A stretch of DNA of 23,309 nucleotides, taken from positions 1-23,309 of IMG/VR virus record IMGVR_UViG_3300020405_000021. One strand, 5' to 3'. The first letter of the stretch is position 1. Each line of letters opens with the position of its first letter. The translations under genes and the position numbers were made by a program. The notes under the pieces were generated by a model. That model was not told the origin of the DNA. It saw nothing but the letters and a program-made list of their open reading frames with translations, and searched no databases. This DNA is from a virus. This document shows, in pieces, positions 5,813 through 23,197 of the stretch.

Positions 5813-7414
5813 TTAGAACTCTAGTATGATTTTAATGTCCTCTTTTTGTCGGTCACTTCTCACAATCTCTGGTCTATTATCTAAGTAAATTATTTGTCCC
5901 GACCCTTTATTTATCTCAGAATCAGATAACCCTGCTTGGAATCTAGTTCCAAGATTAATCAACTTAGTTCCAGTTGGATTAGTAGAAATACCTGAAAAAT
6001 TAGTTTGAACTTTACCTGAAAATCCTGATTCATCACCACTCACAACCGACTCTGAACTTTCAAACTGAAATGTTGGAGTGGATGTGGTTATCCCAAGAAA
6101 GTCTGTTTGATCCTTCGCTATATTTCCTGTATTGAAATAAAGTGATCTGTCTCTAAAGTATTTCATCACTTTAGTTTCCTTATCATAAGATGAAACGTAA
6201 CCTTTAGCAATCCTTGTAGCATTATTTAATGTCAATGTTTGTGTTATTTTCTCACCTACAATTGGTGTTCCAGTAGAAGTATCTGGATTAAATTTTATTG
6301 CTTGTAGTGATGAATATGTATTATCGGTATATGTATTTGCAGTGCCAGCTTTAGTTGGATTCTTTACAATTCCAACCTGTGCGAATATGGAATCACTTGG
6401 GAAGTCTTTAGTTGAATCATCAAATCGAGAGTAAATCATAACTCTATCAGTTCCCAACTCAGTGTAAATGTCATCACCATGACCTCTTCCAGGAGGAATT
6501 ATAGGAACTAACTTTGCTCTATTTTGTGCTGAAACATTACTACTTATACTGTCTAAATTTACCATTGCATAAGTATAACCCTTTCCACCATTACTAACCG
6601 TCACATTTGTTATATTGCCCCCTTGAACAGTTACCCTTGCTTTTGCACCTGTTCCATCACCCAATATATCTACTTCTACAGAACCGCCCTCTGGTGAATT
6701 ATCATATTCTATACCAGGATTTTCAATATAAACATGTTTAATTTGATTTGAATTTACATCAGAGTTTCCATTTTCTCTTACTGTTCTAATTTGAGAGTCA
6801 GTTGATGATGACCAATTATTAGGAACAGTAATAAATTCAGTTGAATCAAATTTTATAATGTCACTTGGAGAAACTGTAAATAAGTATTTCCACTTATATC
6901 CATCACCACTATTTCCTGCTTTTGATGGTTCTAAATCAGTAAACAATGGTTCATCCTGTGATACATTGCCTAATGGATTAATGCCTGAAGAACCATTATC
7001 AATACAAATATAAACTTTAAACTCAGAGTTCATTACGTAGTAATGTGCGTCATATAATCTATTTGATTTTGTTACTGGACTTTGATTTTCTGGACTGTAA
7101 TCATCTCTATAAATTTCATACCTATTACCAGAAACCCAATCTACTCTTCTAATAAGTCTTCTTATATTTGCAGATGATACCTTTTTACCAAACATCATTG
7201 TATCACCACTATGTCTTAGATATGCAAAACTATCTGTTGGTGAGGGAGTCACTGTGTTCCAGTCAGAGGATCTACCATAACCCACTAAACCTGGTATACC
7301 ATCAGGATTTGATAATCCTAAAAATACATAATATGAATTATTTGTATCCTCTACTGACTCTACAAAATTATTTGCATTTAAAATTCTAAATTGATCAGTA
7401 ACAATTGCTGACAT
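5813..7414 (-). CDS. gp8: Baseplate wedge subunit gp8
   Basis: This 533-residue protein matches T4 gp8 as I remember it at several places. These are the start AIVTDQFRILN (residues 3-13), RRVDW (89-93) aligning with RRDW, GDGYKWKYLF (170-179) followed by EFITVPNNW (193-201), and the final 29 residues from SGQIIYLDNRPEIV (505-518) to the end (EDIKIILEF), aligning with SGEMIYMENRPPII...EEINILFTF. In T4, gp8 is a wedge component bound near gp7 and gp10, and it is about 334 residues long. The extra ~200 residues here lie mainly between 205 and 505. They include GTGAKARVTVQGG (254-266) followed by NVTVSNGGKGY (270-280), the repeat shared with the neighbouring proteins. The gene starts 41 nt after the giant gene and has its own late promoter. 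The leader lacks a good Shine-Dalgarno. Its TAA stop lies 1 nt before the next start. Confidence 0.93.
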   Translation of the reverse strand: MSAIVTDQFRILNANNFVESVEDTNNSYYVFLGLSNPDGIPGLVGYGRSSDWNTVTPSPTDSFAYLRHSGDTMMFGKKVSSANIRRLIRRVDWVSGNRYEIYRDDYSPENQSPVTKSNRLYDAHYYVMNSEFKVYICIDNGSSGINPLGNVSQDEPLFTDLEPSKAGNSGDGYKWKYLFTVSPSDIIKFDSTEFITVPNNWSSSTDSQIRTVRENGNSDVNSNQIKHVYIENPGIEYDNSPEGGSVEVDILGDGTGAKARVTVQGGNITNVTVSNGGKGYTYAMVNLDSISSNVSAQNRAKLVPIIPPGRGHGDDIYTELGTDRVMIYSRFDDSTKDFPSDSIFAQVGIVKNPTKAGTANTYTDNTYSSLQAIKFNPDTSTGTPIVGEKITQTLTLNNATRIAKGYVSSYDKETKVMKYFRDRSLYFNTGNIAKDQTDFLGITTSTPTFQFESSESVVSGDESGFSGKVQTNFSGISTNPTGTKLINLGTRFQAGLSDSEINKGSGQIIYLDNRPEIVRSDRQKEDIKIILEF

Positions 7415-7455: not shown

Positions 7456-10400
7456 TCAAGCTATAATAGCCCTTATTGAACCGCTGTTTCTGTGTCCTTT
7501 TTCACCTTGATCATCATAACTCTTTCTTTGTATTGTTGGGAAAGTTGTGAGTCCACTATTTACTGTGAATCCAGAAACACCAATTGAGATTGGATTACTT
7601 GAACGTGCAACGTCGTTACCATATATTCTTCCCCAACTTAATTTACCTAGAGGTCTTGCAGAAGTAAGATCACCATCAAAGAATCCTTCGGTGTTTATAC
7701 CGCTGATAGAACTAGCACTATTTGTATGAACATGGCATATGATAGTTCCCGTTGCACCATCAGTTATTATAGAATTAACAATATAAACATTATCAACGAA
7801 AGTTGTACCAACTCCTACGATATTTGCATTACCAGGTTCTACAGATGTAAGACCATTACCCACATTTGTATCTGTAATAAGGACTGGGTATCCTTGTTTT
7901 AATGTGTTTGCTGCAATATTAGTATTTAATGTTCCATTAGGTTGTCTTACTACTCCATAGTAATCAAATCTAAGTGCTGGACCACCACCACTTCTGGTGA
8001 TTTGAGTTATACCAGTTATGATTCCAGTATATCCTTCAAATTGGTCAAAACCATTTACTTTTTCTGTTTTAAATTTAGGTTCATCGATTATAACTTGTGG
8101 TGGAGCCATGTTTGAATAACCAAATCCAGGATTTGTAATATTAATATCTGTTATTGAACCGTTTGTTATAGTAGCGGTTGCTGTCGCAGTAGTTGCTACT
8201 CCCACCGTTCCATCAGATTGTATAAATGTATGAATTCCTACAAGTGGATTACCTATTTTAACAGTAGCACTCTCATATCCACTACCTGAATTTGTAATAT
8301 TAATATCTGTTATTGTACCTGCTGTAGATACTATTGCTGTTGCAGATGCACCTACTTTAATTTCTCCAGATGTTATCAAGGCATCAACAGAGTCAACTGT
8401 AAAATTATCATACTTGTTTTCATAGAAAAACTGAGTAGCATCATCAACAAATATACCGTCATTGTTGTTAACTCCCTTTCCAGATGTAGATGTTAAATTA
8501 CCGATTATCTTTGAAGTGGGATAAATTTGAGGTTCTAATATAGATCTTGATTTGTCAATTTTTTGACCATTGATTATGAAATCAGTTTTTTGTTTAGTCC
8601 ATCTTATTGGTTTTTCATTTTTTTCGTCAATACCAAGTCCAGTGTAGATATCAGTATCAAGTATATCTGTATTAAGAATTTCTTTTACTATTCTCTCTTT
8701 TTGCTGTGATGTTGTTATGCCTGGTAGAGTAGGATTCGCAAAAACTCTTAAATTATCACCTATCTTTATTGTTTCAGATACATTTTGAAGTTTTACATCT
8801 ACATTATCAGTTCCTTTATAGAAGTAAATATCTACTTTATCATGGTCATTTAGACCAGGACCAGATTCTCCACTAGGTGCTTCAGTAAATGTAAATGTAG
8901 TTCCACCTTGGAATTGATATGCTTCACCAGGTTTTTGTAATACACCATTTATAAAGATGAGTAATACAGCATCTAAATCAATCAAAGCGGAGCGAGGATC
9001 ATCAAGTGTTTTTTCAAAACTTAATAGTTCACCATTAAAGAATAATGGGAATCTTGTTCTTTTTCCATTTTGTAATATTTTGATGCTATCAATCGCATCA
9101 ATTTGACCAAATTGCCAAGCGGAGAATTTATCGTTGAATATTTCTAAAACCTCTAATTCAAATTCCTGAATTGGTGATGTTAAATGAGCAGCAGTAACTA
9201 ATCCTACAGGTTTGAACTTATCTCCTTTTTTGAACGAATGTCCTGACCTTGCAACTTCAAAATCCTTTATTTGGAATAGTGTAGAACCAATTCCAACACT
9301 AGTTGATGCAGCACTAACCCCAACATTTAATAGTAAATTTGATCCAGTATCAGTAGTTGCTCCAACTCCTAATCTAGATATACCTACAACTTCAAGATTT
9401 TCATATACAGGTTCAGGTATTATTATTTCAGGATTTACATAACCTGTACCAGGTGAGGTTATATCAAACGATAGACTACCTCCTACACCCACAGTTGCGG
9501 TCACAACAGCACCTGTTCCTCCACCACCACCAGCACCAACATTAAATGTGATTGTACTGAGAGATGTTGAACCTACACTTACAAATGTGCCAGCAAATGG
9601 ATCTGAGTTAGGGAAACTAGTTTTAGATACTGCACGAGGATATGGATGATTACCTAAGAATGCATCTTTTGAACACTTAAATACGATTCCACCAGTATCA
9701 ATACCAACTGTATCACTCGTTGTAAATGTATGATCTGGTATGGTTAATGTAAGAAGTCCGCTGTGAGATTCATAAAATGCATCAGTTGCAGTAAATGAAT
9801 CTCCATTATAAGTTCCTTTTTTAATAGAACCAATTCCTGAACTAACGAATCTATGTTCATACGCAATGTCTGTTACACCTATAGCAACACTACCACCACG
9901 ATATCCAGAACCAAATGTTAAGTCCTCATAAAATTCATACACATGACCACCACCTTGATAAGTATGTGGTATTGTGCTGGCACCTGCTTTTACTTCAAAA
10001 GTTCTCTCAGATACAATACCAACAACAAATAACCCTCTTTCATGGTCTTGGAATATTGTGGTTGTGACTCCAACATATCCACCACCACCAATTGTTTGTA
10101 CTGCAGTAGCAGTTGCTGATACAAAAGTATGAGTATATTGATCACCAGGTGCAGAGGCACCAACATTTACTCTAAATGTATTTGTAGTAACGTTACTCAC
10201 TGTCAAATATTGATTTGCAGCAGGATCAGTTGCTCTTGGATAACTATGATTCGTAGCGTTACTATCTTTAGTACAAGTAAACACGAATGAATCTGTTTCA
10301 AGAACAACAGCATCACCATTTACTAATCCATGATTGTTAATAGTAATAACTAAATTACCATTTGAAGGAGTATAATTTGCATTTGTAGGTTGACCAACTA

Positions 10401-13400
10401 CAGTTTTAGGGCATTTAAATTCCAATCCCTTTAATTTAACCGTAGTAGGTTTATTCAAACCAAATCCATGAACATCATTTGTTGTGACAGTTATTATTCC
10501 AGTATTATTATCATAATCAGCAGTTTGAATACCTATATTAAATCCTGATGATGTACCAATACCGACAATACCTGTTAATTCACCGTTACTATTTTTCTCT
10601 GCTTTTACATTAGCACCATGTAATGGAGCATATCCTAAACCTTCTGTAGAACCAAGAGAAACAATAAGACCACCTCTAGGTATTTGATTTTGATTGATAT
10701 CGGAGTCTGATACTATGAATTGACCATTCTCTGAGGTTATACCTGTAAATCTAATAGTTGAAATTCCAGCAATTGTATCAATACCAACATTATAATTTTC
10801 TTCATTTCCTGTATTATTTGCTGTATCAGGTGTTTGGAATACCCCGTTTATGAATACTACTCCATTTCCTCTACCATCAATACCTGCAGAGGTGTTCGCA
10901 CCACCAACTTTTAAGTTATAAGCAGTAGTAAGACCAGTAAAGTTATCTGAGATATCATCGAATAACATATTTGTATCATAACTTTGTCTTAAGAAAGTTC
11001 TACCACTAAAGTTTGCTTTTACGAAAGGTATTTCAGTTTCTGTTCTTCTTGTACGAGTATTACCTTTGGGTGGTTCAATAAAATGAATTGAACTGTCAAC
11101 AATGTTGAATGAACCCCTATGAACTCTAATAACATCTCCATTATTATGCGAAGTAGCACCCACTCCTAAAACACCCCTCTCAACTCTAACTGTTGGTATG
11201 TTTGAAATTCCTAGTGATACATTTAATTGATCATCTATTTTTCCACTTCCATCTGATGTACTTGAAAAACCAACTTCAATAATTTTCATGTATTCATCGT
11301 CTATTTTTAATACATCAAATGTTGATATTGAACTAATTCCACTTAATGAGAATTGTGTTGTTGCAGCACCGATGTTTACGTCCAACGTATAATTTAATTC
11401 GGTAAATGTAATTGGTTGTTGCACTACGCCATCTAATCCAATAATAGTCTTAGACAGTTTGTTTGACATATTTAACTTATGAGCATTACCAGCACCAATA
11501 CCAGTAAATGTTATTGCAATACCTGAAGTAATGTCTTCTTTTGTTGGGAATAATTGGAACTTGTCTTCACTGATTACTTTTGCAAAAACAGTGGATGGTA
11601 AAATATCAGTGGTGACACCAGCATTATTAATTGTTGCACCTATTGATACTGCAGTGGCAGCAACTCCAATAAATGTTGATGTAGGTTCATATGTTATTTC
11701 TTCACCTGTATTAAAGAAATGACTAGGTAAAGTAAATATTCCTGTGGATTTTTCAAGATTAGCACCATCAGGATTAAAAGTTTTACTGTATATTGGTGTT
11801 CCTTCAAATGTAAGATCAAATTTAGTTTTATTTGCTCTTCTACCTGCTAATCCATCATAAGTTGATAATAATATATCTTGCTCTACAGCACCATATTTCA
11901 AAGTACCAGGTAAGTTATCAAAATCAGACTCTGTATTTAAAATTTGGTTATATGCTTGAACGGTCACTTCATCAGTAAACTCTGAATCAGGAACAAAAAG
12001 TAATGAGATGTTATCTCCATTTGTATCTGATATAAATGAACCAATACCAGTTGTTGATCCTAATGATACGTACGGATATTGAACAACTAAAATATCTTCA
12101 GCGTCTCTAACTGCAACAACCTGATGTATAGCTGAAGTTTGTCCAGTAGATACTCTAATTAATGATTTAATAGAACTATCTAATGTTTTATCAAGATTTG
12201 CATAAGATATAGAGGTTCCTGTACCAGTATTAACTGTAGATTCAAATCTAGCACTCCTTTCAGCACCTTGAGGTTGTCCTGATGCTAAAAATCTGAAAGT
12301 ACCAATTCCAGCAGTTATAGTTCCTAAACCAACTATGTTTGCTTTTGCATCGAGTGGATTCTCTCTATCATTTTCAATTTGTATTTTTACTAAACCACCT
12401 TCTAATCGAGTAGTTACAATACCAACAGTGTTTGATGTGTTAGTAGTACCTCTATCATCAATGTAAATTTGTGAGGTGGTTGTATCTACACCATCAAAAT
12501 CAACAGTAATTTCATTATAATTAATTTCTTTAGTTAGAGAATCTTGTACAAAAATAGTAGCATGTAATCCATTGAATTCATCTTTATTAAATTCTACAAC
12601 TGTAGTAGTGTTAAAACCGACTGCTTGTATTTGCTCTTGAGTAGCGGATGCTATTCCTACATTTGCACTCACTAATTGAATATTTCCAATAACACTGGTT
12701 GTAACACCCAAAGCATCAACGTCATAAAAAGTTTTGATCATTTTTACATCATGATCTTTAATGAATTTTTCACTAGGGTTGAATAATAAATTCTTCGTTC
12801 CGTCACTTTTAATTTCAGTATCAAAAGTTCCCAATCTTAAATTTCCATCAACATTATCCAAACCTACTCCAGCACTATCCGATGATTTTTCTACTAGAAA
12901 AACGTCTTCCTGTGTTGTTAAAATGACTAGTTCACTTAATTGAGCATCAAAGGTATCAGGATCAACTACTTGTATTAAATAATGTACAAATTTACCAGTA
13001 ATTTCATTTAATATAGTTGAATTAGCAGCAAATCCAACACTAGAAAACTCATCGCTAACATCATCATGAATAAGAACTCTGTTAGTAATACACTTATTGA
13101 AATTAGTTAATTTCTTCTCAGATAATAATAGAGATTTTGATTTATTTCCTAAACTGTTAAAGTCTAATGCATTGTCAAAATTATTGATAGCATCAACTCT
13201 GTTATCATCACTTACTATATCAAGAATCGTAACACTTATTGAATCAACAGTAGTTCCAACACCTACCCTTGTTTTAGTTTCTACAAATGTATCGGAGAAA
13301 TTCTTTAAACCTGCAGGATGTATAATACTATTCAAACTATTTGAGAATTTATCCCAAGGAATAGGACTCTTGACAGAGTAAGATAAATTTTGATAGTAAT

Positions 13401-16400
13401 CGTTATTAGGAGTAACTTGAGTATCATCATTTAATTTACCAATATCATCAATCCATCCAATATCTTGGCGACTTGAGAAATCAATTTCAAATTTTGCTAA
13501 ATTATTTTTTATATTAACGATTTCTGCTGATACACCTGTAACTTTTCCTAAAATTCTATCACCCTTCTTAATATAATCTAATCCATCTAATTTGATATAG
13601 TCATTTCTAATTTCAACAACAGTTAGATCAGAGTCTTGACCATTCAAAGTTAATGCTTCATTTTGTTGGAATACACCTCTACTTTGAACTGGAACTAACT
13701 GTGGATACTTATTTTTATTAATGATAGATGCGTATCCAGATTGGAATGTTTTAGCAATACCTGGATTTGTAGTAACACCTGCTACGCTATATTTTACTAT
13801 GGTAGTAGTGCCTGGAGTGTATGATACAACTTTAAAGAACTGGAAATGATGATCAGCAGAGTTAAATCCCTCTCCTAGAATATCTCCACCAGCAGCACCA
13901 CCCTGTGTACCTATTCCTGCTTCTCCAAGTCTTTGTATTCCTTCTACATAAATTTCATCACCAACTGCAAATGGTTGTGGATCAAGGAAACCATTAAATG
14001 GTGTTTCCATGAAGCATGTAACTAATCCACCAGAACTGCTTTGAATTGAATTTATCCCTATACCATTTGAATTATTAATAGCAAAAATCTTATGTTCAAC
14101 AGAATCTAAACCATTTATAGGTGCAATAATGTCAACTGAAGATATAGATTGTTCTGGTGCTTTTGGATCTAATGAAAGTTCATCTACAATGATATTCGAT
14201 GTAGGATTGAACACTACTAAATTTGGTGGAGTTGTATAATCTGATCCACCATCTACAATATCAATTTCAGTTATTTGATCTAAATTATCAATATTAATTA
14301 TTGATGGAACAAAAACTTCAGGTTGTAAAGTTTTGTCGGCTGAATATTCGTAACCAATGTCAAGCACTCTAATATTTTCTATTTTACCTATATTTTTTGA
14401 TTCAGCTACTAGATTTGCATTTGCTCCTGTAACAGATAAAACTTCTTTAAATACAGGTGGTCTTTTGTAATTGAATCCATTAGATAATATTTCAATATTT
14501 TTTATACCACCATTAACATTTTTTGATTTTGTAGAATACTCAATTACATCACAATTTGTTTCATCGTAATTTAAAATTTCTGGAACTTTTGGTGAAAATT
14601 CAAATGATTCGTCAGTTACATTCGATATTTTGTAATCTCCATTGTAGATACTATCTACAAAAACAATTTGAGAATAATTTTGTACATCTGTATCTGCAGT
14701 GCTTATAAATCCACCTTTTGTCAATCCATAATACAGAACCAAAGGAGTTGAAGCAGAAGATTGCAATGTTAAAGTAGCACCAACAAGATCGTTTAGATTG
14801 GTTCCTATACCTATAGTTCCTTGTCTTTGAACGTTAAATGTAGTCGAATCAAGAGAACTTAGATATTCATTTTCGCCATTTTCATTGAAAATTTTAAAGT
14901 CAAAATCAGCAAGATTTGTTGTTGATAAACCAAATGTTAGTTTTGAATTCTTATATACTTTAATTTGAGGATTTACAAGTGATATAACTTGATTATTTCC
15001 ACCAGTATTTGCTGTAATATTAATTAGATTAATTGGATTACTATAAAGATCATTATAAGTTTCTGCTAATTGGAAATATCTACTATTAATTTTATGAACA
15101 AAGTATAATCCATTTGCTATTCCAGAACCATCTCCAGTGTAAAGAACTTTATCTCCTGTTTCAAATCCATGATTAGCGATATCAATTCGATCTGTTTCTA
15201 CATCTGCACTTACAAATTTTATTGGATCTACAATTAATTTTTCAAACTCTGTGTTATAATCAACTTGTACAGGTGTTGTTTTTCCTAAGCCAACGGATAA
15301 GTTTGGAACAACATTTATTGTTACAATGTCACCATTCTGTAAATTGTGAGTTGTTGTATTAGCAGCAGCAACTTTTGTAGTAAGAGTACTAATAACTTTA
15401 TCAATATCACCTGTTACTTGTTCAAATTGTGATGTAATATTATAGAGATGAGTGTTTATACCGCTAACATTACTTGCATTTGATTTGAAATATAATCCTT
15501 CACTTGTACTTCCAATAGCTACGGTTGATAATCCAATATAATTATTGCTTTTCTTGATTACAAATAAATCTTGAGAATTTCCTGTAAATGGTATTGAAAA
15601 ATTACCATCTGAGTCATTTGGGTCATCTGAGGTTGCTACATTTAATTGTTTATTGGAGGTATTAGGAACATTAAGTTTTACTTTTTGACCTGTAACGAAT
15701 GGGTGATTAGGAAGATAAATTTGTCTATTTGGGATCGATACTGAATCTACTCTATCTCCAACAAAATAATTTGTGGATATTCCTTCTCCATCTGTTCCTA
15801 ATCCTATTTGTTGAGGTGCATTAAAATAAACAACATCGTTTAATTGTGATTCAAACTTAGTTGTTGATGCTGGTATTGATATAACTGTGTTTAAGATATC
15901 AACATTTGAACCATATGTATGTGCTACTCCAGTATTTCTTACAACACGAATTGCTTTTTCTAAAGGAAATATATTGATTACCATCATGGTTTCATCAATT
16001 GTTCCTGGTTGAACTGCGGATGTATTCCCAGAACCAACTCTAATTGTTCCACCTATAGAAACATCATTTGGTATTTTACTAACAAAAATATCTTCTATAG
16101 CAAGACTACCAGATGCTACAGTTTTTGTTGGTGCAAGTAATTTTACACGAGAGGTAGTAATTCCAATTGTGAAAGAATCTGATAATCCTAGAATTGATTT
16201 ATTTAAACCAGAAACTAAAATATTATCTTTATCATTTAATTCTAAAAATGGTAGATATTTTGCATTGACTTGATTACTATTTTCCCAAGTAAATACTACA
16301 TCTTCAAATGTAGTAAGATTTGTTTGAATTGAAGATACTCCAAGACCAACAATATCACTAACTTCTGCATTTAAACCTGTACCGTTTGTATCTGTATTAT

Positions 16401-19400
16401 CAAAAGATGTGCGATCACCAACTTTATATCCAGTTCCTGGATTCAGTATAGTAATACTTTCTACTTCACCCTTTGATACTGATGTCACCTCTGCTGATTG
16501 TCTTATGAATTCATTTGACTCGATAATAAAATCATTGTTAGCAAATTCTTCACCTACATTGTATGGATAGGTGTTTCTAATTAAATTTGAATTATTAAAA
16601 TCAAAATCATGAGTTAATTTAAGATTCTCTTTTATTAGAGGTGATCTAAATGTTTTTCCTATAAAGTAAGGATATGATCCATTCAATTTACCATTAATAT
16701 TTACCTCTACTGTTGCAAAATATGCATATACTCCATTTGGAAATTCTGGAGTTTTACAGAATCTTCCATTGTGTATATCTAAATCACCCGATGCATCGTA
16801 CACAAAATCGTCAACAAAATACCCATCAATAAAACCTGTTGGTCTATTCTCAACTTTAGTACTATCTTTTGCATATGAAGATTCTATCAACTTTATAGGG
16901 GAATTAATATTATTTGGTTCTGTATATCCAAATGGACCGTAAATTGGATTACCATCATATGCCCAACCAATGATTGATGAGTGTTTTGCTGGTGTATCAA
17001 AATCACCACTACTTGTTACATTGAAAGTATTGACTTCTAAATTTGAAATTAATTCCTGATCACAACCTATAACACAAAAACTTAAAAAATCTCCTCTTGG
17101 AACTAATACAGTATCACCTGTTCTACTCTTTTCATTTATTCGTAATACTCTTACATTTGCCTCAAAATTACCATTAAGACCACTATTATCAAGATATGCG
17201 TTTGTAGTTAACTCATTATAACCTATACCAGAGTTTATCACTACTGTGTCGATAAGTTTACCATTTTCAATTACAGGTCTTACAATAGCACCTACACCAC
17301 TTCCATCACTAGAAGTTATTGTAATATCTGGTTTTGAAAAATAATTTTCACCTTGATCAACTATGACAACATCTATAATTTTTCCGTTTGATACTATTGG
17401 TTTTAATTCTGCATTTTTTCCACCATCAATTGTAACAGATGGATTTATTAAAGTATTTAAAATTTTTGAACCATAATCAGAACCAGTTTCATACACATAA
17501 GCATCAGTAAAAGAACCTTTAACATAAGGTGTTATATTGAAACCACCTGTTATTGTGCCACCATAACCTACCTCAAGATTAACTTTAATATCTGGATACT
17601 TAAAAGTTTGATATCCAGTACCTGTAGAGTTTAACCCAACAATTTTACCTCTCTCAAAATCAACGATTGATGTACCACCAACACCAGCATTTGCTAATTT
17701 AAATGAATTATCATCAACTTTCATCACATAGTAAGATGTTGTTGTTGATAATCCCTGAATTTCTTTTGGCATTGTTGAACCAATACCTACCATAGGTGCA
17801 TAATCAACCAAGTCACCATGATTGAAACCATGATTAACAAAATTAATAGTATTGAAAGAGGTTGATATACCAGATGGTTTAACAATCAATTTTCGATGTT
17901 GATAACCCTCTCCAGAATTAATTACTTTTATATCGGTTATAGTATTTTTTGATATAGTTCTAAAAGCATGTATACCACTTGCTGCAGTATCAGTTGACAA
18001 TCCTACTGTGTTAATTCCAGATAAAGCATCATTTTTTGTGTTATAGATTCTTACAGTTGTAGAGTTTACAACTCTTACATAATATGGATCTCCACTTGCT
18101 AATGTTCCAGTAATTGTGTTAGTGCCATCATAAGCAGCACCTATTCCTATAGATGGATTTCCGTTATTCAAATAATAAACTAATTCACCGTTTTCTAAGT
18201 TGTGTTTTCGTGTAAATGTAATTGTTTCGTCTTCAATATCAATACCACCACCAAAAAATATATCTTTACTATTAAACTCTAATTCTCTATATCTCTCTCC
18301 TGTAATTGCCTCTAATACACATCCAGTACCATTTCCACCAGTTAATGAAATGTTCTTAACAGATGCAATATCAAAATCTTGTGGATCAATAAGAACTTTT
18401 TCGACAGATCCAGATAAAACTGGTTCTGCCAAAGCCTGTTCACCAGTGCTAGATTCTACAAATATTTTTGGTGGATTATTAACATCATAACCAGAACCCC
18501 CATTTATAACGTCTATTTTAGTTATACCACCATAACTTATAAAATCCTCCGATATTGGAGATCTTATTTCTACACCGTCTTTTAATAATCCAATATCATC
18601 TACATTTTCATCATTATTAGTTGCATTGAATAAATTTTGTTCTAACGGGAACTTTCTTAAAATTTTATTTGCACTTATTTTCTTATCATGATGTCTTTGA
18701 AGTGTAAATATATGCTGATCTGTCAGAGATTGACCTAAACCAATTTGTACAGTGCTAGCTGTTCCAATTTGTGCTCTGGACAAATAAAGTGCTATTCTAG
18801 TAATCTTTGTGCCAGGTTGTTCTGGTTGTGGATCAACATAATATATTTCACCATCATTCAAACCTGGAATGATATCGCTTGGATTATTATCCGTAGAATT
18901 AGGATCTTTAACTGAATTGTATACTATAGCATCTCCCCTTATAAATTTAATATCTCTAATTGTATCAAAATTAAAACTGAGGAAACTGTATGAATCAGTA
19001 TCTGGATTTAGTCCATCTAGTGAAAAATTAGTTGTTGTTTGAGCAATACCAATTATCTTTTCATCTATAACTTTATCTGTAATTGTATAACTTGGTAATG
19101 AATTTGATGCAACATATCCATCTGCAGTACCGTCAACATAAACATTTAATATGTCTGACATAATATTATTGTTTCCTTCTCTTATCTCAATTCCAGAACT
19201 AGACGCTTTTTTAATTACTCTACGAATATCATATTCTTCACCTAAAACAGGATTAAAATTTAAATTTTGAACACTTATTTGATTATCACTCAGATTAACT
19301 CCACCATTGGGAATTGTAAAGAAATCGTCAGCAGTTGTCTCATTTCTTCTTAATACTTGGAATGTATCGCCATCTTTAATAGATGATTTATCAATCTTAG

Positions 19401-20814
19401 TGTTTAATTTAATTGTTCCACCAATTTCACTAGTAGTAACTCCAACTTGAAATCTTGAACTTGAATTGTAAATCCAACTATTTACGAATTTTTGTCTATA
19501 ATCTAATGATTCATTTAATATTTTTTCTCCAACATTCTTTACAAATATTTTTTCTCCCTCTCTAATTAAAGATAAGTTTTCATCAGTTACTAATTTAGAT
19601 AAAACTCCAGTAATTCTCAATTCAACCTTTTTAGTTGCATCACCATTCTCATAACCAAATATAAAGTCATCATTTCTTATACTATCTGCAGTATTAATAG
19701 GGACATCAATACCTTCACATCCAAAAAACTGATTTAAAGATTTTGATTTGTATTCAATTGTATTAGTTCCACTCTTAAGAATTCCTGTATTACCAAAACC
19801 AATAGTTGAATCAACAGTTATAATAGAATCAGTTGTTGATACTCCCGATAATACTTTGGTATGTGGAGTTACTGAGAATATACCTTGTATTAAATCACGA
19901 TCACTATATCCTACAAATAATGCAATTTTATAATAAGTTTTACCATCTCTATTGAATATCTCAACCTCAGATACAGATCCATTAGTTCCTAAATCATTAT
20001 TTTTAAATATTGTCTGTCCTACTAGGTTTTGAGGATCTTTATCCTCAGTAATTAAATCTGCAATTATTACTTCTCTTCTTATATACTCAGCATCAGAGGG
20101 TTTAATTACGTTATTTTCGAGATCTAAAATCCTTGACTCTACTCCATATAATACCTTAAATAAAACTCTTATTGACTCCTCTACACCTTTTGAACGATAA
20201 AAAGAACGAGCAAATTTTACAAAGTTACCAACATCTAAGTCTGATGCTAAAGTTGAGTTTTCAAAACCTGGTAAAAACGTCTTTTTTAATTTTTTATAAA
20301 ACTCTTGTAAAAATAAAACAGATAGATTATTTACTACAGAACCATTAACATGTGAAGATGCTGTAGTTTCTTCAAATTTTAAACTTTCTTTATTAACATC
20401 TAATAATGAAGATGAAATCCCAACATTATATCCAGTTACTCCACTAAAACCACGCAGACATCCTGTGAATGAAGTAGATGTAATTCCAGTGTAAGATATT
20501 ATTTCATCATCTATCTTAAGTAAACCATACTCTGTTGGAAATCCTTTAGTGCTTGGAACATTTATAGTTGTATCAGTTGATTCTATACTAGTTGTAATTG
20601 AAGTGACACCGACAATGACTTCTGGAACTAAATTATCGACTTTTAAATATTGATCAAAATTACTGATTAAATCAGTTGGACCTCCTTGAAATTCTTGAGA
20701 GATATAATATTGTTTAAAAAATTCGACTGCGTTAGGAAAATCAGCAGAGACGAACTCTGGCAACTGATTCTCAATAATTGTATTGACTTTTATTCTTTTG
20801 TCAAATTGTGACAT
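7456..20814 (-). CDS. Giant baseplate/tail protein in the gp7 position (4,452 residues)
   Basis: Located between gp6 and gp8, where T4 encodes gp7 (about 1,032 residues). The ATG follows a good ribosome site, GAGAGG, 9 nt upstream. Residues 1-70 and about 165-232, including SFYRSKGVEESIRVLFKVLYGVE (204-226), resemble the RSKGT...LF..LFG pattern of simple tail protein I, the counterpart of gp7. A beta module (about 75-130, with LLKIDDEIISYTG and GCLRG) interrupts this core. Related IDDE or GCxG modules recur near 322-372 and 3150-3230. At least ten I..I.I..G.GY repeats occur. HGF..GD modules lie near 871, 995, 1877 and 3030. A YHYH-like domain spans 1283-1386. INGV.Q-type modules sit at 3127, 3322 and 3955. 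A pair of HxYPR repeats lies at 3523 and 3723. The tail (about 4381-4452), with RPLGKLSWGRIYG and TTFPTIQR, is familiar from cyanophage structural proteins. Chain mass is near 480 kDa. No signal peptide, membrane helix or enzyme motif is seen. The gp7 role is inferred from position and the N-terminus; a long tail-fibre-like role is the main alternative. Confidence 0.92.
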   Translation of the reverse strand: MSQFDKRIKVNTIIENQLPEFVSADFPNAVEFFKQYYISQEFQGGPTDLISNFDQYLKVDNLVPEVIVGVTSITTSIESTDTTINVPSTKGFPTEYGLLKIDDEIISYTGITSTSFTGCLRGFSGVTGYNVGISSSLLDVNKESLKFEETTASSHVNGSVVNNLSVLFLQEFYKKLKKTFLPGFENSTLASDLDVGNFVKFARSFYRSKGVEESIRVLFKVLYGVESRILDLENNVIKPSDAEYIRREVIIADLITEDKDPQNLVGQTIFKNNDLGTNGSVSEVEIFNRDGKTYYKIALFVGYSDRDLIQGIFSVTPHTKVLSGVSTTDSIITVDSTIGFGNTGILKSGTNTIEYKSKSLNQFFGCEGIDVPINTADSIRNDDFIFGYENGDATKKVELRITGVLSKLVTDENLSLIREGEKIFVKNVGEKILNESLDYRQKFVNSWIYNSSSRFQVGVTTSEIGGTIKLNTKIDKSSIKDGDTFQVLRRNETTADDFFTIPNGGVNLSDNQISVQNLNFNPVLGEEYDIRRVIKKASSSGIEIREGNNNIMSDILNVYVDGTADGYVASNSLPSYTITDKVIDEKIIGIAQTTTNFSLDGLNPDTDSYSFLSFNFDTIRDIKFIRGDAIVYNSVKDPNSTDNNPSDIIPGLNDGEIYYVDPQPEQPGTKITRIALYLSRAQIGTASTVQIGLGQSLTDQHIFTLQRHHDKKISANKILRKFPLEQNLFNATNNDENVDDIGLLKDGVEIRSPISEDFISYGGITKIDVINGGSGYDVNNPPKIFVESSTGEQALAEPVLSGSVEKVLIDPQDFDIASVKNISLTGGNGTGCVLEAITGERYRELEFNSKDIFFGGGIDIEDETITFTRKHNLENGELVYYLNNGNPSIGIGAAYDGTNTITGTLASGDPYYVRVVNSTTVRIYNTKNDALSGINTVGLSTDTAASGIHAFRTISKNTITDIKVINSGEGYQHRKLIVKPSGISTSFNTINFVNHGFNHGDLVDYAPMVGIGSTMPKEIQGLSTTTSYYVMKVDDNSFKLANAGVGGTSIVDFERGKIVGLNSTGTGYQTFKYPDIKVNLEVGYGGTITGGFNITPYVKGSFTDAYVYETGSDYGSKILNTLINPSVTIDGGKNAELKPIVSNGKIIDVVIVDQGENYFSKPDITITSSDGSGVGAIVRPVIENGKLIDTVVINSGIGYNELTTNAYLDNSGLNGNFEANVRVLRINEKSRTGDTVLVPRGDFLSFCVIGCDQELISNLEVNTFNVTSSGDFDTPAKHSSIIGWAYDGNPIYGPFGYTEPNNINSPIKLIESSYAKDSTKVENRPTGFIDGYFVDDFVYDASGDLDIHNGRFCKTPEFPNGVYAYFATVEVNINGKLNGSYPYFIGKTFRSPLIKENLKLTHDFDFNNSNLIRNTYPYNVGEEFANNDFIIESNEFIRQSAEVTSVSKGEVESITILNPGTGYKVGDRTSFDNTDTNGTGLNAEVSDIVGLGVSSIQTNLTTFEDVVFTWENSNQVNAKYLPFLELNDKDNILVSGLNKSILGLSDSFTIGITTSRVKLLAPTKTVASGSLAIEDIFVSKIPNDVSIGGTIRVGSGNTSAVQPGTIDETMMVINIFPLEKAIRVVRNTGVAHTYGSNVDILNTVISIPASTTKFESQLNDVVYFNAPQQIGLGTDGEGISTNYFVGDRVDSVSIPNRQIYLPNHPFVTGQKVKLNVPNTSNKQLNVATSDDPNDSDGNFSIPFTGNSQDLFVIKKSNNYIGLSTVAIGSTSEGLYFKSNASNVSGINTHLYNITSQFEQVTGDIDKVISTLTTKVAAANTTTHNLQNGDIVTINVVPNLSVGLGKTTPVQVDYNTEFEKLIVDPIKFVSADVETDRIDIANHGFETGDKVLYTGDGSGIANGLYFVHKINSRYFQLAETYNDLYSNPINLINITANTGGNNQVISLVNPQIKVYKNSKLTFGLSTTNLADFDFKIFNENGENEYLSSLDSTTFNVQRQGTIGIGTNLNDLVGATLTLQSSASTPLVLYYGLTKGGFISTADTDVQNYSQIVFVDSIYNGDYKISNVTDESFEFSPKVPEILNYDETNCDVIEYSTKSKNVNGGIKNIEILSNGFNYKRPPVFKEVLSVTGANANLVAESKNIGKIENIRVLDIGYEYSADKTLQPEVFVPSIINIDNLDQITEIDIVDGGSDYTTPPNLVVFNPTSNIIVDELSLDPKAPEQSISSVDIIAPINGLDSVEHKIFAINNSNGIGINSIQSSSGGLVTCFMETPFNGFLDPQPFAVGDEIYVEGIQRLGEAGIGTQGGAAGGDILGEGFNSADHHFQFFKVVSYTPGTTTIVKYSVAGVTTNPGIAKTFQSGYASIINKNKYPQLVPVQSRGVFQQNEALTLNGQDSDLTVVEIRNDYIKLDGLDYIKKGDRILGKVTGVSAEIVNIKNNLAKFEIDFSSRQDIGWIDDIGKLNDDTQVTPNNDYYQNLSYSVKSPIPWDKFSNSLNSIIHPAGLKNFSDTFVETKTRVGVGTTVDSISVTILDIVSDDNRVDAINNFDNALDFNSLGNKSKSLLLSEKKLTNFNKCITNRVLIHDDVSDEFSSVGFAANSTILNEITGKFVHYLIQVVDPDTFDAQLSELVILTTQEDVFLVEKSSDSAGVGLDNVDGNLRLGTFDTEIKSDGTKNLLFNPSEKFIKDHDVKMIKTFYDVDALGVTTSVIGNIQLVSANVGIASATQEQIQAVGFNTTTVVEFNKDEFNGLHATIFVQDSLTKEINYNEITVDFDGVDTTTSQIYIDDRGTTNTSNTVGIVTTRLEGGLVKIQIENDRENPLDAKANIVGLGTITAGIGTFRFLASGQPQGAERSARFESTVNTGTGTSISYANLDKTLDSSIKSLIRVSTGQTSAIHQVVAVRDAEDILVVQYPYVSLGSTTGIGSFISDTNGDNISLLFVPDSEFTDEVTVQAYNQILNTESDFDNLPGTLKYGAVEQDILLSTYDGLAGRRANKTKFDLTFEGTPIYSKTFNPDGANLEKSTGIFTLPSHFFNTGEEITYEPTSTFIGVAATAVSIGATINNAGVTTDILPSTVFAKVISEDKFQLFPTKEDITSGIAITFTGIGAGNAHKLNMSNKLSKTIIGLDGVVQQPITFTELNYTLDVNIGAATTQFSLSGISSISTFDVLKIDDEYMKIIEVGFSSTSDGSGKIDDQLNVSLGISNIPTVRVERGVLGVGATSHNNGDVIRVHRGSFNIVDSSIHFIEPPKGNTRTRRTETEIPFVKANFSGRTFLRQSYDTNMLFDDISDNFTGLTTAYNLKVGGANTSAGIDGRGNGVVFINGVFQTPDTANNTGNEENYNVGIDTIAGISTIRFTGITSENGQFIVSDSDINQNQIPRGGLIVSLGSTEGLGYAPLHGANVKAEKNSNGELTGIVGIGTSSGFNIGIQTADYDNNTGIITVTTNDVHGFGLNKPTTVKLKGLEFKCPKTVVGQPTNANYTPSNGNLVITINNHGLVNGDAVVLETDSFVFTCTKDSNATNHSYPRATDPAANQYLTVSNVTTNTFRVNVGASAPGDQYTHTFVSATATAVQTIGGGGYVGVTTTIFQDHERGLFVVGIVSERTFEVKAGASTIPHTYQGGGHVYEFYEDLTFGSGYRGGSVAIGVTDIAYEHRFVSSGIGSIKKGTYNGDSFTATDAFYESHSGLLTLTIPDHTFTTSDTVGIDTGGIVFKCSKDAFLGNHPYPRAVSKTSFPNSDPFAGTFVSVGSTSLSTITFNVGAGGGGGTGAVVTATVGVGGSLSFDITSPGTGYVNPEIIIPEPVYENLEVVGISRLGVGATTDTGSNLLLNVGVSAASTSVGIGSTLFQIKDFEVARSGHSFKKGDKFKPVGLVTAAHLTSPIQEFELEVLEIFNDKFSAWQFGQIDAIDSIKILQNGKRTRFPLFFNGELLSFEKTLDDPRSALIDLDAVLLIFINGVLQKPGEAYQFQGGTTFTFTEAPSGESGPGLNDHDKVDIYFYKGTDNVDVKLQNVSETIKIGDNLRVFANPTLPGITTSQQKERIVKEILNTDILDTDIYTGLGIDEKNEKPIRWTKQKTDFIINGQKIDKSRSILEPQIYPTSKIIGNLTSTSGKGVNNNDGIFVDDATQFFYENKYDNFTVDSVDALITSGEIKVGASATAIVSTAGTITDINITNSGSGYESATVKIGNPLVGIHTFIQSDGTVGVATTATATATITNGSITDINITNPGFGYSNMAPPQVIIDEPKFKTEKVNGFDQFEGYTGIITGITQITRSGGGPALRFDYYGVVRQPNGTLNTNIAANTLKQGYPVLITDTNVGNGLTSVEPGNANIVGVGTTFVDNVYIVNSIITDGATGTIICHVHTNSASSISGINTEGFFDGDLTSARPLGKLSWGRIYGNDVARSSNPISIGVSGFTVNSGLTTFPTIQRKSYDDQGEKGHRNSGSIRAIIA
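8077..8350 (-). repeat. Tandem pair of GTGA/GxGY beta repeats with a 25-bp direct DNA repeat
   Basis: Residues about 4155-4245 of the giant protein hold two adjacent units. Each has an Ala/Thr-rich strand, then ITDINITN, then GSGY or GFGY, then a Val/Ile strand. The DNA for ITDINITN is nearly unchanged: an identical 25-base stretch on the plus strand begins TTTGTAATATTAATATCTG and occurs at 8132-8156 and 8291-8315. The spacing is 159 bases, exactly 53 codons. This indicates a recent in-frame duplication. Confidence 0.8.
9481..9762 (-). repeat. HPYPR-type beta repeat, second copy
   Basis: Residues about 3685-3778 of the giant protein form the second copy of a module. It starts with G.L.LTI..H (from 3686), then IVFKCSKD, then NHPYPRA (3722-3728), and ends in a NVGAG strand. 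It aligns without gaps to a copy exactly 200 residues earlier over at least 44 positions, 19 of them identical. The Cys in F.C.KD and the H.YPR motif are both conserved. It runs directly into a GTGA...GTGY repeat (about 3770-3800). Confidence 0.75.
10066..10359 (-). repeat. HSYPR-type beta repeat, first copy
   Basis: Residues about 3486-3583 of the giant protein are the first copy of the 200-residue-spaced module. It has GNLVITINNHG, then FVFTCTKD, NHSYPRA (3522-3528) and a FRVNVGAS strand followed by YTHTF. The preceding stretch (about 3438-3475, with VHGFG and EFKCPKT) looks like a third, shortened relative. I recall similar HPYPR modules in other cyanophage structural proteins. No function is known to me. 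Confidence 0.75.
14215..14515 (-). repeat. Cluster of three GxGY-type beta repeats
   Basis: Residues about 2100-2200 of the giant protein hold three successive units of the form I..I.I.D.G..Y...P...V: IKNIEILSNGFNYKRPP, IENIRVLDIGYEYSADKT and ITEIDIVDGGSDYTTPP. They are spaced roughly 40 residues apart. Such units probably form short beta hairpins or a beta-solenoid-like stretch; the fold is inferred. Confidence 0.7.
16657..16968 (-). other. YHYH-like domain inside the giant protein
   Basis: Residues 1283-1386 carry the marks of the YHYH domain family in order: GWAYDGNPIYGPFGY (1283-1297), a D.HNGRF block (Asn at 1349), FPNGVYAYF (1358-1366) and YPYFIG (1381-1386). In cellular members the third block reads YHYH. 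Here it is YAYF, so both histidines are gone. The family's biochemical role is unknown to me. In phage structural proteins it probably serves as a structural or binding domain. Confidence 0.7.
17190..17400 (-). repeat. Pair of GxGY beta repeats
   Basis: Residues about 1140-1205 of the giant protein contain IIDVVIVDQGENYFSKP, then GSGVGAIVRPVIENGK, then LIDTVVINSGIGY. This shows the full unit order: a GTGA-like strand, a Gly/Asn turn, an I..I.I strand, then GxGY and Pro. Single further copies lie near residues 771, 965 and 1455. Confidence 0.7.
17690..18225 (-). repeat. Two consecutive HGF..GD..Y beta modules
   Basis: Residues about 865-1040 of the giant protein show two units that share an order: a T.T/N.V-H (His 871 and His 995), then NGELVYY or HGDLVDY, then YYV.VV or YYVMKV about 33-40 residues later (near 911 and 1028), then a short Ile/Phe-rich strand. 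Related units appear near 1877 (IANHGFETGDKVLY) and near 3030 (SHFFNTGEEITYEP). This module is common in cyanophage tail proteins as I remember them. Confidence 0.65.
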
Positions 20815-20817
20815 AAA

Positions 20818-22794
20818 TTATTTCCTCTCTAAAACTCCATTTGAGTAACTTGAGGTATAGTAATCTCTAGTAAATACAACACCTGATACATCTTCTCCTG
20901 ATGCTATTACGTCCTTCACCATATTTATGTTACTATTAGAAATGTCTAAACTAACAAATAAATCTTTGAGACCTATAACATCATTAGATTCTGGGAATGC
21001 TTGTATTTCTATTATGTCGTTTTGAGAGACAGTTGATGTAATATTAATGGTGTTTAATATTATCTCACCCTTTTTATAGTCAACAGAACCAGCTTCCTTC
21101 ATTAGAACTTTAATATTATTTTTTTGATCTTTAGTAACAACACTAATAGTTCCTTTCATGCTTCCATCAAGATTACCTGCAGCATCTTTATTTGGAATAT
21201 CAGTAAAATATGCTGTCTCTAAACTGCCAGAAATTGTAAATCCAGTACTTTTAATATTATATCCAACAGGATTGATATGGAACATGTTGCCAAAACACAA
21301 TTCATATTGAGCAAATTGATTAATTAAGGCATTCAAGTCCCTTCTAATGATTACTTTAGTGATATTTGAGGTAATACCATCATCAATACGGTCAATTAGT
21401 TGATTTACTTTACTATATTTGAATCTTCCACCAAATTTATTCATCTCAACGTTATCTGCATAAGATTGCAATGCACTTAGAACATCTGTTCTTAGATTGA
21501 TTGATGAACCTATCTTTATGGGGTCATAGTATACGTTAGAGTCAACTTCAATATAGAGTATTTTAAGGTCAATTATCTCAGAGTTGATTCCAGCAATTGC
21601 ATAACTTTTTAATTTATTCTTAATCTGCGATTTATCAAAATCAGATAAAAAAGTGCCATTTTTTGGTTTGATACTTATCTGCACTTTTCCAAATTGTGGT
21701 GGATCTAACTCCTCTCCTCCAATGACTGCAACAGACTCTGTTTGTGGATAAATTTGATTAATTATTGCCTCATAATCTCTTGATGTAACTGCTCTGTGTT
21801 GTGCTGAGTAAAGTCTTGGTGCAAAATACTTAATAGACGACACATCTTCAACTTCTGCCCCGTTAGAAGCGTTTGTAATGGTAGTTACTGTCACACTATC
21901 AGTTGGAGTAAAGAAAGTTCCATCGTCTTTTGTAAAGGTTCCTTGGAAACTAAAATTACTTGGACCATTTCCATCTTTTCCTTCACTTACAATATAAGTT
22001 GCAGTGATTCTTGATCCATTATCAAGTTTTTTACCAAAAAATCCATCTCCAAACAAAATTTCATATTTTTCATCTTGAATTTCTTGTGAAAGATAGATTT
22101 CTGAGTTTTTATTTAAATTTAAAATATTATCAACCTTCGTATACTTTCTTCCAATCGTAGCTTGGTTTGGATCTGCAACATATACGTTTAATGTTGATGC
22201 ATCAATACCAGGACTATCAATTATAAATCTTTGATCCTGTGATGTATCAACTCTGTACACACGATTTAGATATGTTCCTTCGTAAATTGATATATTATCA
22301 GCAAATTGGGCAAATGAGTGAATAATAGCATTTCCGTTTGCATCTGTGCCTACACTTCGACTTACAATTTTAGTTGATGTAATATTATCAGGTATTGAAA
22401 AACGATAAGTTGTATTTTCACTGTTTCCAATACATACAAGTCCAGATCTAAGCGTTAACTTCTTTGGTGTAGCATTTGTAGTTAAACCTAAGTCAACATC
22501 TCCAAGTTTTATTGTTGCAATCGCTGATCTTCTTGAACGTGGTACATATCCAATGTTTCGAGCAAGTGAAACCACGTTTTCACGAATAGTTGCAGAGTCT
22601 AAAAATGACTCATTTGCAACTAAGTTAGCATTAAATGAGTTAATGTAAGTATTATATGCTAAAGTATCAATTAGAACAGAAAAGTTTGACCCTTCAAAGT
22701 CAAAATCCTTAAAATTGGAGTTTGAACGGAGAAAATCTTTGATCTGTGCTTTGATATTTTCAAAGTCTAAACTAGTGTACTGAGTAAAGGGCAT
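20818..22794 (-). CDS. gp6: Baseplate wedge subunit gp6
   Basis: At 658 residues it is almost the length of T4 gp6 (660). The N-terminal block, with FENIKAQIKDFL (11-22), DFDFEGSNFSVLIDTLAYNT (32-51), ANESFLDSATIRENVVSLA (about 61-79) and GYVP, matches the T4 pattern LDYDFEGS...LLAYNT...YESFM.TA. In the middle, AVTSRDYEAII (from about residue 334) and GGEELDPPQFGKVQISIKP (from about 357) are the Baseplate J/gp6 core signature. In T4, gp6 forms the inner ring that ties the wedges together and changes shape during sheath contraction. The ATG is 1 nt after the gp25 stop and has no strong ribosome site, so coupling to gp25 is likely. Its stop lies 3 nt before the giant gene. No unusual features are seen. 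Confidence 0.95.
   Translation of the reverse strand: MPFTQYTSLDFENIKAQIKDFLRSNSNFKDFDFEGSNFSVLIDTLAYNTYINSFNANLVANESFLDSATIRENVVSLARNIGYVPRSRRSAIATIKLGDVDLGLTTNATPKKLTLRSGLVCIGNSENTTYRFSIPDNITSTKIVSRSVGTDANGNAIIHSFAQFADNISIYEGTYLNRVYRVDTSQDQRFIIDSPGIDASTLNVYVADPNQATIGRKYTKVDNILNLNKNSEIYLSQEIQDEKYEILFGDGFFGKKLDNGSRITATYIVSEGKDGNGPSNFSFQGTFTKDDGTFFTPTDSVTVTTITNASNGAEVEDVSSIKYFAPRLYSAQHRAVTSRDYEAIINQIYPQTESVAVIGGEELDPPQFGKVQISIKPKNGTFLSDFDKSQIKNKLKSYAIAGINSEIIDLKILYIEVDSNVYYDPIKIGSSINLRTDVLSALQSYADNVEMNKFGGRFKYSKVNQLIDRIDDGITSNITKVIIRRDLNALINQFAQYELCFGNMFHINPVGYNIKSTGFTISGSLETAYFTDIPNKDAAGNLDGSMKGTISVVTKDQKNNIKVLMKEAGSVDYKKGEIILNTINITSTVSQNDIIEIQAFPESNDVIGLKDLFVSLDISNSNINMVKDVIASGEDVSGVVFTRDYYTSSYSNGVLERK
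20824..20829 (-). promoter_or_regulatory. Ribosome binding site of the giant gene
   Basis: GAGAGG on the minus strand ends 9 nt before the ATG at 20814-20812. It lies inside the last codons of gp6 (the ERK end), so translation of gp6 and the giant gene is probably linked. It is the only clear Shine-Dalgarno site among the five starts in the window and supports the chosen start. Confidence 0.8.
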
Positions 22795-22795
22795 A

Positions 22796-23197
22796 TTATC
22801 TGGTTGGTTCTAATATGAAACTGAAAGATTGAGTTGGAACTTCCAATCCAACTATGTCAAAAAGTACCTTGACCTCTATTTCATTTAAATCTGGTCTGCC
22901 TACCACCTCAAGACCAAGGTTACTAACTCTAGGTTCAAAGTTATACACTGTTTCACGTATTTGGTCTTCAATAACAGTAACTGTTGTCCTTGAATAGTTC
23001 TCAAATAGTGAATCTCGTATGTCTGTGCCTATTAAAGAGTTAAAAAACCTCTCAGTAGGTATTGTTTCAACTAAATTTCTCACTGACCTGACAATTGCAC
23101 GTTCATTAAGTAGCACAGGAAGGTCTTTTGTCACTGGATGAGGTGAAAAAGACAGACTTATATCCTTAAATGCTCTTGATTTGCGTGTGATCGCCAT
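22796..23197 (-). CDS. gp25: Baseplate wedge subunit gp25 (GPW/gp25 family)
   Basis: This 133-residue protein is the same size as T4 gp25 (132). The family core runs from about residue 28 to 130: the NERAIVRSVRNLVETIPTER helix region (31-50), FFNSLIGTDIRDSLFE (51-66), and NFEPRVSNL (86-94), which contains the EPR triplet (88-90) conserved in gp25, phage gpW and the type VI secretion protein TssE. The C-terminal strands include VKVLFDIVG and FSFILEP. In contractile tails this protein nucleates sheath assembly on the wedge. It is the first gene after a late promoter (23216-23223), and the predicted leader is very short with no Shine-Dalgarno site. The stop lies 1 nt before gp6. ATG at 23197-23195 is chosen because it is the only start close to the promoter and gives the family length. 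Confidence 0.94.
   Translation of the reverse strand: MAITRKSRAFKDISLSFSPHPVTKDLPVLLNERAIVRSVRNLVETIPTERFFNSLIGTDIRDSLFENYSRTTVTVIEDQIRETVYNFEPRVSNLGLEVVGRPDLNEIEVKVLFDIVGLEVPTQSFSFILEPTR

Follow-up and report, generated by a model that had tools for sequence, protein, structure and literature searches.

A 4,452-residue marine phage protein as the likely baseplate wedge protein gp7, with a core in two separated blocks

Introduction

The T4 protein gp7 has been said to be absent from pelagimyophages and cyanomyophages, where it is apparently substituted by VrlC (PMC7029224). The window analysed in the present study, an entire IMG/VR record of 23,309 bases and thus a 23-kb fragment of its genome, encodes a protein of 4,452 residues in the position between gp6 and gp8. 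The locus raises the question of whether this protein is gp7 and, if so, which part corresponds to T4 gp7 and what role the remainder may have. New here are the two-block core, the places at which the protein grew, the stepwise variation of one cassette, and the correction concerning gp7 and VrlC.

Results and Discussion

Gene order and integrity of the giant ORF

The genes recognised in the window all lie on the minus strand and are listed below.

22796..23197, minus strand: gp25, sheath initiator (PF04965, E=5.6e-10)
20818..22794, minus strand: gp6, the expected partner of the gp7 core (PHROG_219, E=3e-187; Pfam Gp6-like helical domain at residues 11-83)
7456..20814, minus strand: protein assigned as gp7, baseplate wedge protein, 4,452 aa, 480 kDa (intact ORF; PHROG_2885; collinear with P-SSM2 gp7)
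5813..7414, minus strand: gp8, wedge protein (PHROG_438 and PF09215)
1..5811, minus strand: VrlC-like protein, cut by the window end and not gp7 (downstream of gp8, an arrangement also seen in P-SSM2, P-HM1 and HTVC008M; no match to either core block)

The order gp25, gp6, X, gp8, which a sequence-only reading of this DNA had proposed, was borne out by the Pfam and PHROG assignments, and its suggestion that X is gp7 in the usual slot is supported by core homology and synteny. By its position, the truncated protein at the window end corresponds to VrlC of P-SSM2-type phages (PHROG_358).

From 20814 to 7456 on the minus strand the giant gene is a single stop-free ORF with a calculated product mass of 480.4 kDa. 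PHROG_2885 ('baseplate wedge subunit') spans residues 4-4431 of the product (E=0), and gp7 of the Prochlorococcus phage P-SSM2 (YP_214343, 5,195 aa, PHROG_2885), encoded in the same gene order, is collinear with it over the full length at 48-50% identity, which places the window protein in a family that had been annotated before. This collinearity also argues against an artefactual ORF, whether from assembly or from fusion of separate genes, for which the size of the ORF is the sole point in favour, as does the occurrence of the same single collinear ORF in the complete genomes of P-SSM2, S-SRM01, ACG-2014f, Bellamy and P-TIM68. Such an origin is already refuted for the family, and has a negligible probability for the window.

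The protein is far larger than T4 gp7 (4,452 versus 1,032 aa), as the earlier reading had pointed out, and its question of how unusual this is can now be answered: the gp7-slot proteins of the sampled cyanophages range from 1,937 to 7,124 aa, and 4,452 aa is an ordinary size for the family.

Core block A

Two stretches of the protein carry the likeness to T4 gp7.

19870..20814, minus strand: core block A, residues 1-315, made up of N-terminal helices, a small inserted beta module, three helices bearing the motif 'FYxSKGxxxSxxxLFxxLYG', and a beta domain (profile, hhalign)
13270..13497, minus strand: core block B, residues 2440-2515, 'NDYYQNLSYSVKS...W...IHPAGLKNFSD' (hhalign and profile matches)

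The core A profile (A1), which covers the first 480 residues, was derived from 65 aligned, diverse marine sequences. Among 177,635 PDB sequences just two scored below E=0.01 (1.2e-5 and 6.2e-5), both of them T4-type gp7 matched at residues 729-814, and in the whole T4 genome a single place was matched, inside gene 7 (E=1e-7). Each of the 12 complete genomes of marine phages searched yielded one gp7-slot gene, the other matches in genomes being weak and confined to the small inserted beta module. A separate gp7 homologue elsewhere, which would have spoken against the assignment, was not found in the 12 marine genomes, the nearest complete relatives, or in T4.

Comparison of core A by hhalign gave E=1.5e-15 with gp7 of Sinorhizobium phage phiM19 and E=7e-10 with an alignment of the T4 gp7 family; phiM19 gp7 in turn matched the T4 family in a profile-profile comparison at T4 residues 643-830 (E=1.6e-7). 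The best-scoring part of the core aligned window residues 192-322 with T4 residues 727-829. The T4 gp7 family scored 86 against the profile and the best of 60 shuffled T4 gp7 sequences scored 23.9, indicating that the match is not due to chance. Moreover, PHROG profiles independently join T4 gp7 directly with PHROG_2885 (E=1.3e-4). When the first 300 residues were searched as a single sequence against PDB sequences, the matches to T4-type gp7 were weak (E=0.028 and 0.069), so that a profile was needed.

The earlier reading had placed a recognisable core at residues 165-232, which holds true for the gp7 core, but it had likened this segment to phage tail protein I. Direct similarity to the P2-type protein was not found, the Tail_P_I family (P2 gpI type) giving no match in the whole protein at E up to 1 or in the 65 core A sequences at E up to 0.1. 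Among wedge proteins of the tail protein I type, gp17 of Vibrio phage XM1 (242 aa) has been described as an orthologue of T4 gp7 that pairs with two copies of the gp6-like gp16 (PMC10457771); no direct sequence match between this group and the window protein was found, and a tie to simple contractile tails could be drawn only by way of published structures such as that of XM1 gp17.

No counterpart of the T4 sequence before residue ~643 was found in the window protein. This N-terminal part of ~640 residues is also absent from phiM19 and Acidovorax phage ACP17, and is thus not a defining feature of the wider gp7 family.

Core block B and the two-block architecture

The block B motif ('DYYQNLSYSVKS...W...IHPAGLKNFSD') recurs after block A in all homologues, and core B followed core A in each of the 18 gp7 proteins compared. 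By hhalign, block B matched residues 929-987 of phiM19 gp7 (E=4e-9), and profile matches were obtained in ACP17, DLP6, RHph_I1_9, VH7D, HTVC008M and, weakly, at residues 864-897 of T4 gp7 (864-892 in the profile hit), always after core A; the likeness is strong for phiM19, ACP17 and DLP6. Taken by itself, the match of block B to T4 is weak, with an hhalign probability of 20% (E=0.001) and an HMM i-E of 0.0027 against a small set, and its homology with T4 depends on the links via phiM19, ACP17 and DLP6 together with collinearity.

In T4 gp7 (PDB 5HX2, 5IV5), which occupies the same slot between gp6 and gp8, core A lies at residues 643-830; ~640 residues precede the core and 139 follow block B. 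In the window protein, by contrast, nothing precedes the core, the two blocks are ~2,100 residues apart and block B is followed by a further 1,937. The gp7 proteins of phiM19 (1,007 aa), Stenotrophomonas phage DLP6 (1,288 aa) and ACP17 (482 aa) represent a small, minimal form with both blocks in order, encoded after gp6 and before gp8 and VrlC; DLP6 adds an independent C-terminal extension of 775 aa. Block B lies near the C-terminus in the short relatives ACP17 and S-CREM2 (1,937 aa), ending 13 residues from it in the latter.

These sequence comparisons show a gp7 core in two separated blocks, A and B, homologous to the core of T4 gp7 and in the same order. The window protein is almost certainly the gp7, with a two-block core, of a Kyanoviridae-type marine phage (T4-like, related to P-SSM2).

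VrlC and mislabelled genes

If gp7 were missing and VrlC were its replacement, as stated in PMC7029224, the giant protein would be an unrelated virion protein. Comparison of the whole length of T4 gp7 with these proteins does show little, which is explained by the shared part being small and split. The gp7-slot proteins, however, carry both core blocks, whereas neither block was detected in VrlC of the window, P-SSM2 and HTVC008M or in the large protein encoded after gp8 in S-CREM2 (hhalign probability below 3%), and VrlC was accordingly rejected as a candidate for gp7. Moreover, VrlC lies beyond gp8, and phiM19, DLP6 and ACP17 encode both VrlC and gp7. Replacement by VrlC is thus very improbable, and the published statement that gp7 is absent and substituted is contradicted by the distribution of the core blocks.

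Labels of individual genes are also affected. In the pelagiphage HTVC008M the gene in the gp7 slot, I899_gp055 (18436-21486), is labelled 'head closure Hc2' (PHROG_3465) and contains both core blocks (E=7.6e-21 and 1.4e-13); the label may stem from a beta module that this protein has in common with neck proteins (PHROG_460). Four other genes of this phage, I899_gp059, 062, 063 and 064 (29146-39906), are labelled 'baseplate wedge initiator', and no gp7 core block was found in any of the four. The 573-aa 'gp7' of S-ShM2 (SShM2_094, 20940-22661) was rejected as the true gp7, since it is without both blocks and resembles only the YHYH region of the giant proteins; gp7 of this phage is the neighbouring gene product of 6,198 aa.

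Structure models

AlphaFold models were obtained for residues 1-480 of the window protein (pLDDT 69) and for a compact pelagiphage gp7 of 828 aa (pLDDT 61). In a Foldseek search of the PDB, the first match of both models was chain 9f4a_A0 of a T4-type phage baseplate (E=1.7e-4 for the window, 1.6e-3 for the pelagiphage), and the T4 baseplate chain 5iv5_BJ ranked second and fourth, respectively; TM-scores were low for both models (0.05-0.11). These two chains are taken to be gp7 on account of their lengths (1,031 and 1,004) and of the gp7 entries that the two structures contain. An N-terminal fold unrelated to gpI or gp7 would have counted against the assignment, and the matches of the core profile were of T4 type, as were, at middling pLDDT values and low TM-scores, the first PDB structure matches. 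A Foldseek search of predicted viral proteins returned mostly homologues that were already known.

The model matches support the identification as gp7 and do not prove it, given the very low TM-scores and a block B that is unresolved in the pelagiphage model; nor is this evidence independent of the sequence, as Foldseek also uses residue identities. Packing of A against B, which had been hoped for in the compact pelagiphage model, was not seen, the pLDDT of block B being below 50.

Inserts, arm and places of growth

The remainder of the window protein could be divided as follows.

20428..20613, minus strand: beta module 'gamma' at residues 68-129, an insertion that separates the first helices from the remainder of core A and recurs at residues 316-372 (profile self-comparison)
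13498..19869, minus strand: A-B insert, residues 316-2439 (profile self-comparison; position relative to the core blocks)
Residues 621-719, 855-954, 978-1079, 1866-1955 and 758-839, 1097-1228, 2099-2245, minus strand: recurrent modules in the A-B insert (profile self-comparison)
16696..16998, minus strand: YHYH domain (PF14240), residues 1273-1373 (Pfam E=5.5e-26)
7459..13269, minus strand: C-terminal arm, residues 2516-4452 (position of core B versus the C-terminus in 18 gp7 proteins)
9358..10539, minus strand: variable cassette spanning residues 3426-3819, in which a module of ~95 aa occurs twice, at 3476-3568 and 3676-3774 (copy-number variation in contigs)

The earlier description of the remaining 4,000 or more residues as repeated beta modules is correct as far as the recurrent modules are concerned, but the YHYH domain and core block B, the latter overlooked in that reading, are found there too. 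The region around the YHYH domain (residues 1125-1525) is conserved in all cyanophage gp7 proteins compared. It was also observed that residues 184-302 of the window gp8 form a 'GxGY' beta module, recurrent in gp7 and in neck proteins as well, and one beta module thus appears to be common to several virion proteins (gp7, gp8 and neck proteins).

The extra residues are located at few places. S-ShM2 and P-SSM7 contain ~500 aa more at the position of the gamma module inside core A. The arm after block B is nearly missing in S-CREM2 (13 residues) and MC09, and measures 1,177 residues in S-PM2, 1,937 in the window protein and 3,626 in P-SSM7; in T4 and RHph_I1_9 the extra residues instead precede block A. 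The idea that the giant is T4 gp7 plus an arm is therefore not correct, since the large extra part of T4 gp7 (~640 residues) sits at the opposite, N-terminal end. These positions suggest that gp7 grew by addition of modules within core A, between the two blocks and beyond block B, and the resulting arms would be peripheral, or would bind fibres or the host.

The variable cassette

The cassette is the sole stretch not conserved among orthologues. In 62 marine contigs that span it, one copy of the module was present in 34, two in 27 and three in one, all in frame, and cassette lengths clustered near 285, 394 and 504 residues, a step of ~107 aa. About 8-10 copies were counted in P-SSM2 gp7, compared with two in the window protein, and P-SSM2, P-SSM7 and P-HM1 as a group have about 6-12; none was detected in S-SRM01, Bellamy, P-TIM68, S-ShM2, S-PM2 or S-CREM2. 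It would appear that this part of the C-terminal arm is still gaining and losing a unit of ~107 aa, and the region is a possible recombination hot spot. No simple tie of copy number to Prochlorococcus hosts could be upheld, given that P-TIM68, itself a Prochlorococcus phage, lacks the module. Contact of the cassette with the host is speculative.

Proposed role in the baseplate

In T4, gp7 is part of the heterotrimer of the wedge, by which the baseplate is kept in place around the hub. In the window phage, blocks A and B would meet once the chain is folded and would unite two gp6 chains in such a heterotrimer; a gp6 with the helical domain is encoded next to gp7. The A-B insert and the C-terminal arm would leave the core as strings of beta modules, which would form the outer baseplate and take over part of the roles that gp10, gp11 and the short tail fibres have in T4. 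That the arms form the outer baseplate is moderately probable.

Several findings bear on this proposal. The genes g10, g11 and g12 are listed as missing from cyanomyoviruses (PMC2984593), and the gp10 and gp11 families were not found in P-SSM2, P-HM1 and HTVC008M, except for a marginal gp10-like stretch of 97 aa in P-SSM2. This stretch (NC_006883, 217298-217588), which weakly resembles the middle part of T4 gp10 (E=1.8e-4) and lies in an ORF of 1,175 aa, is possibly a shared fibre domain. The 1,937-aa orthologue of S-CREM2 was detected in virions with 91 unique peptides (PMC10665884). In phage XM1, the tail spikes are held by an internal loop and the C-terminal end of gp17 (PMC10457771), a suggestive parallel to the places at which the gp7 arms would have grown.

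Alternatively, the protein could be gp7 with its extra ~4,000 residues serving mainly as a host-binding adhesin, for a receptor or polysaccharide, and not as baseplate structure. The YHYH domain, grouped with carbohydrate-binding domains in PMC7029224, would fit such a function, as would a single cassette of variable copy number, which is expected under host selection and reaches its highest copy numbers in phages isolated on Prochlorococcus (P-SSM2, P-SSM7, P-HM1). However, P-TIM68 breaks this pattern, no binding domain of known ligand was found, and most of the arm is, unlike tail-tip adhesins, conserved among phages that infect different hosts, at about 15-65% identity per 100 residues outside the cassette. 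A mainly adhesive function is accordingly considered doubtful, though a real possibility.

An outer baseplate built from the arms could be extended to a bolder proposal, which is rather unlikely as a whole. According to this, the wedge protein itself would constitute the outer baseplate as well as some of the surface in contact with the host, one chain per wedge would replace T4 gp7, gp10, gp11 and the short fibres, and the fit to the host would be adjusted through gain or loss of entire modules in one in-frame cassette.

Conclusions

The current study settles what one of the largest proteins of these very abundant marine phages is, and corrects the printed statement that they are without gp7. 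The part of gp7 common to T4 and these phages is small and consists of two blocks, all else having been added at few places, which explains why databases divide the family among numerous groups, labelled for instance as tail, head and packaging, connector or unknown. For structural work on the marine contractile baseplate, concrete residue ranges are now given.
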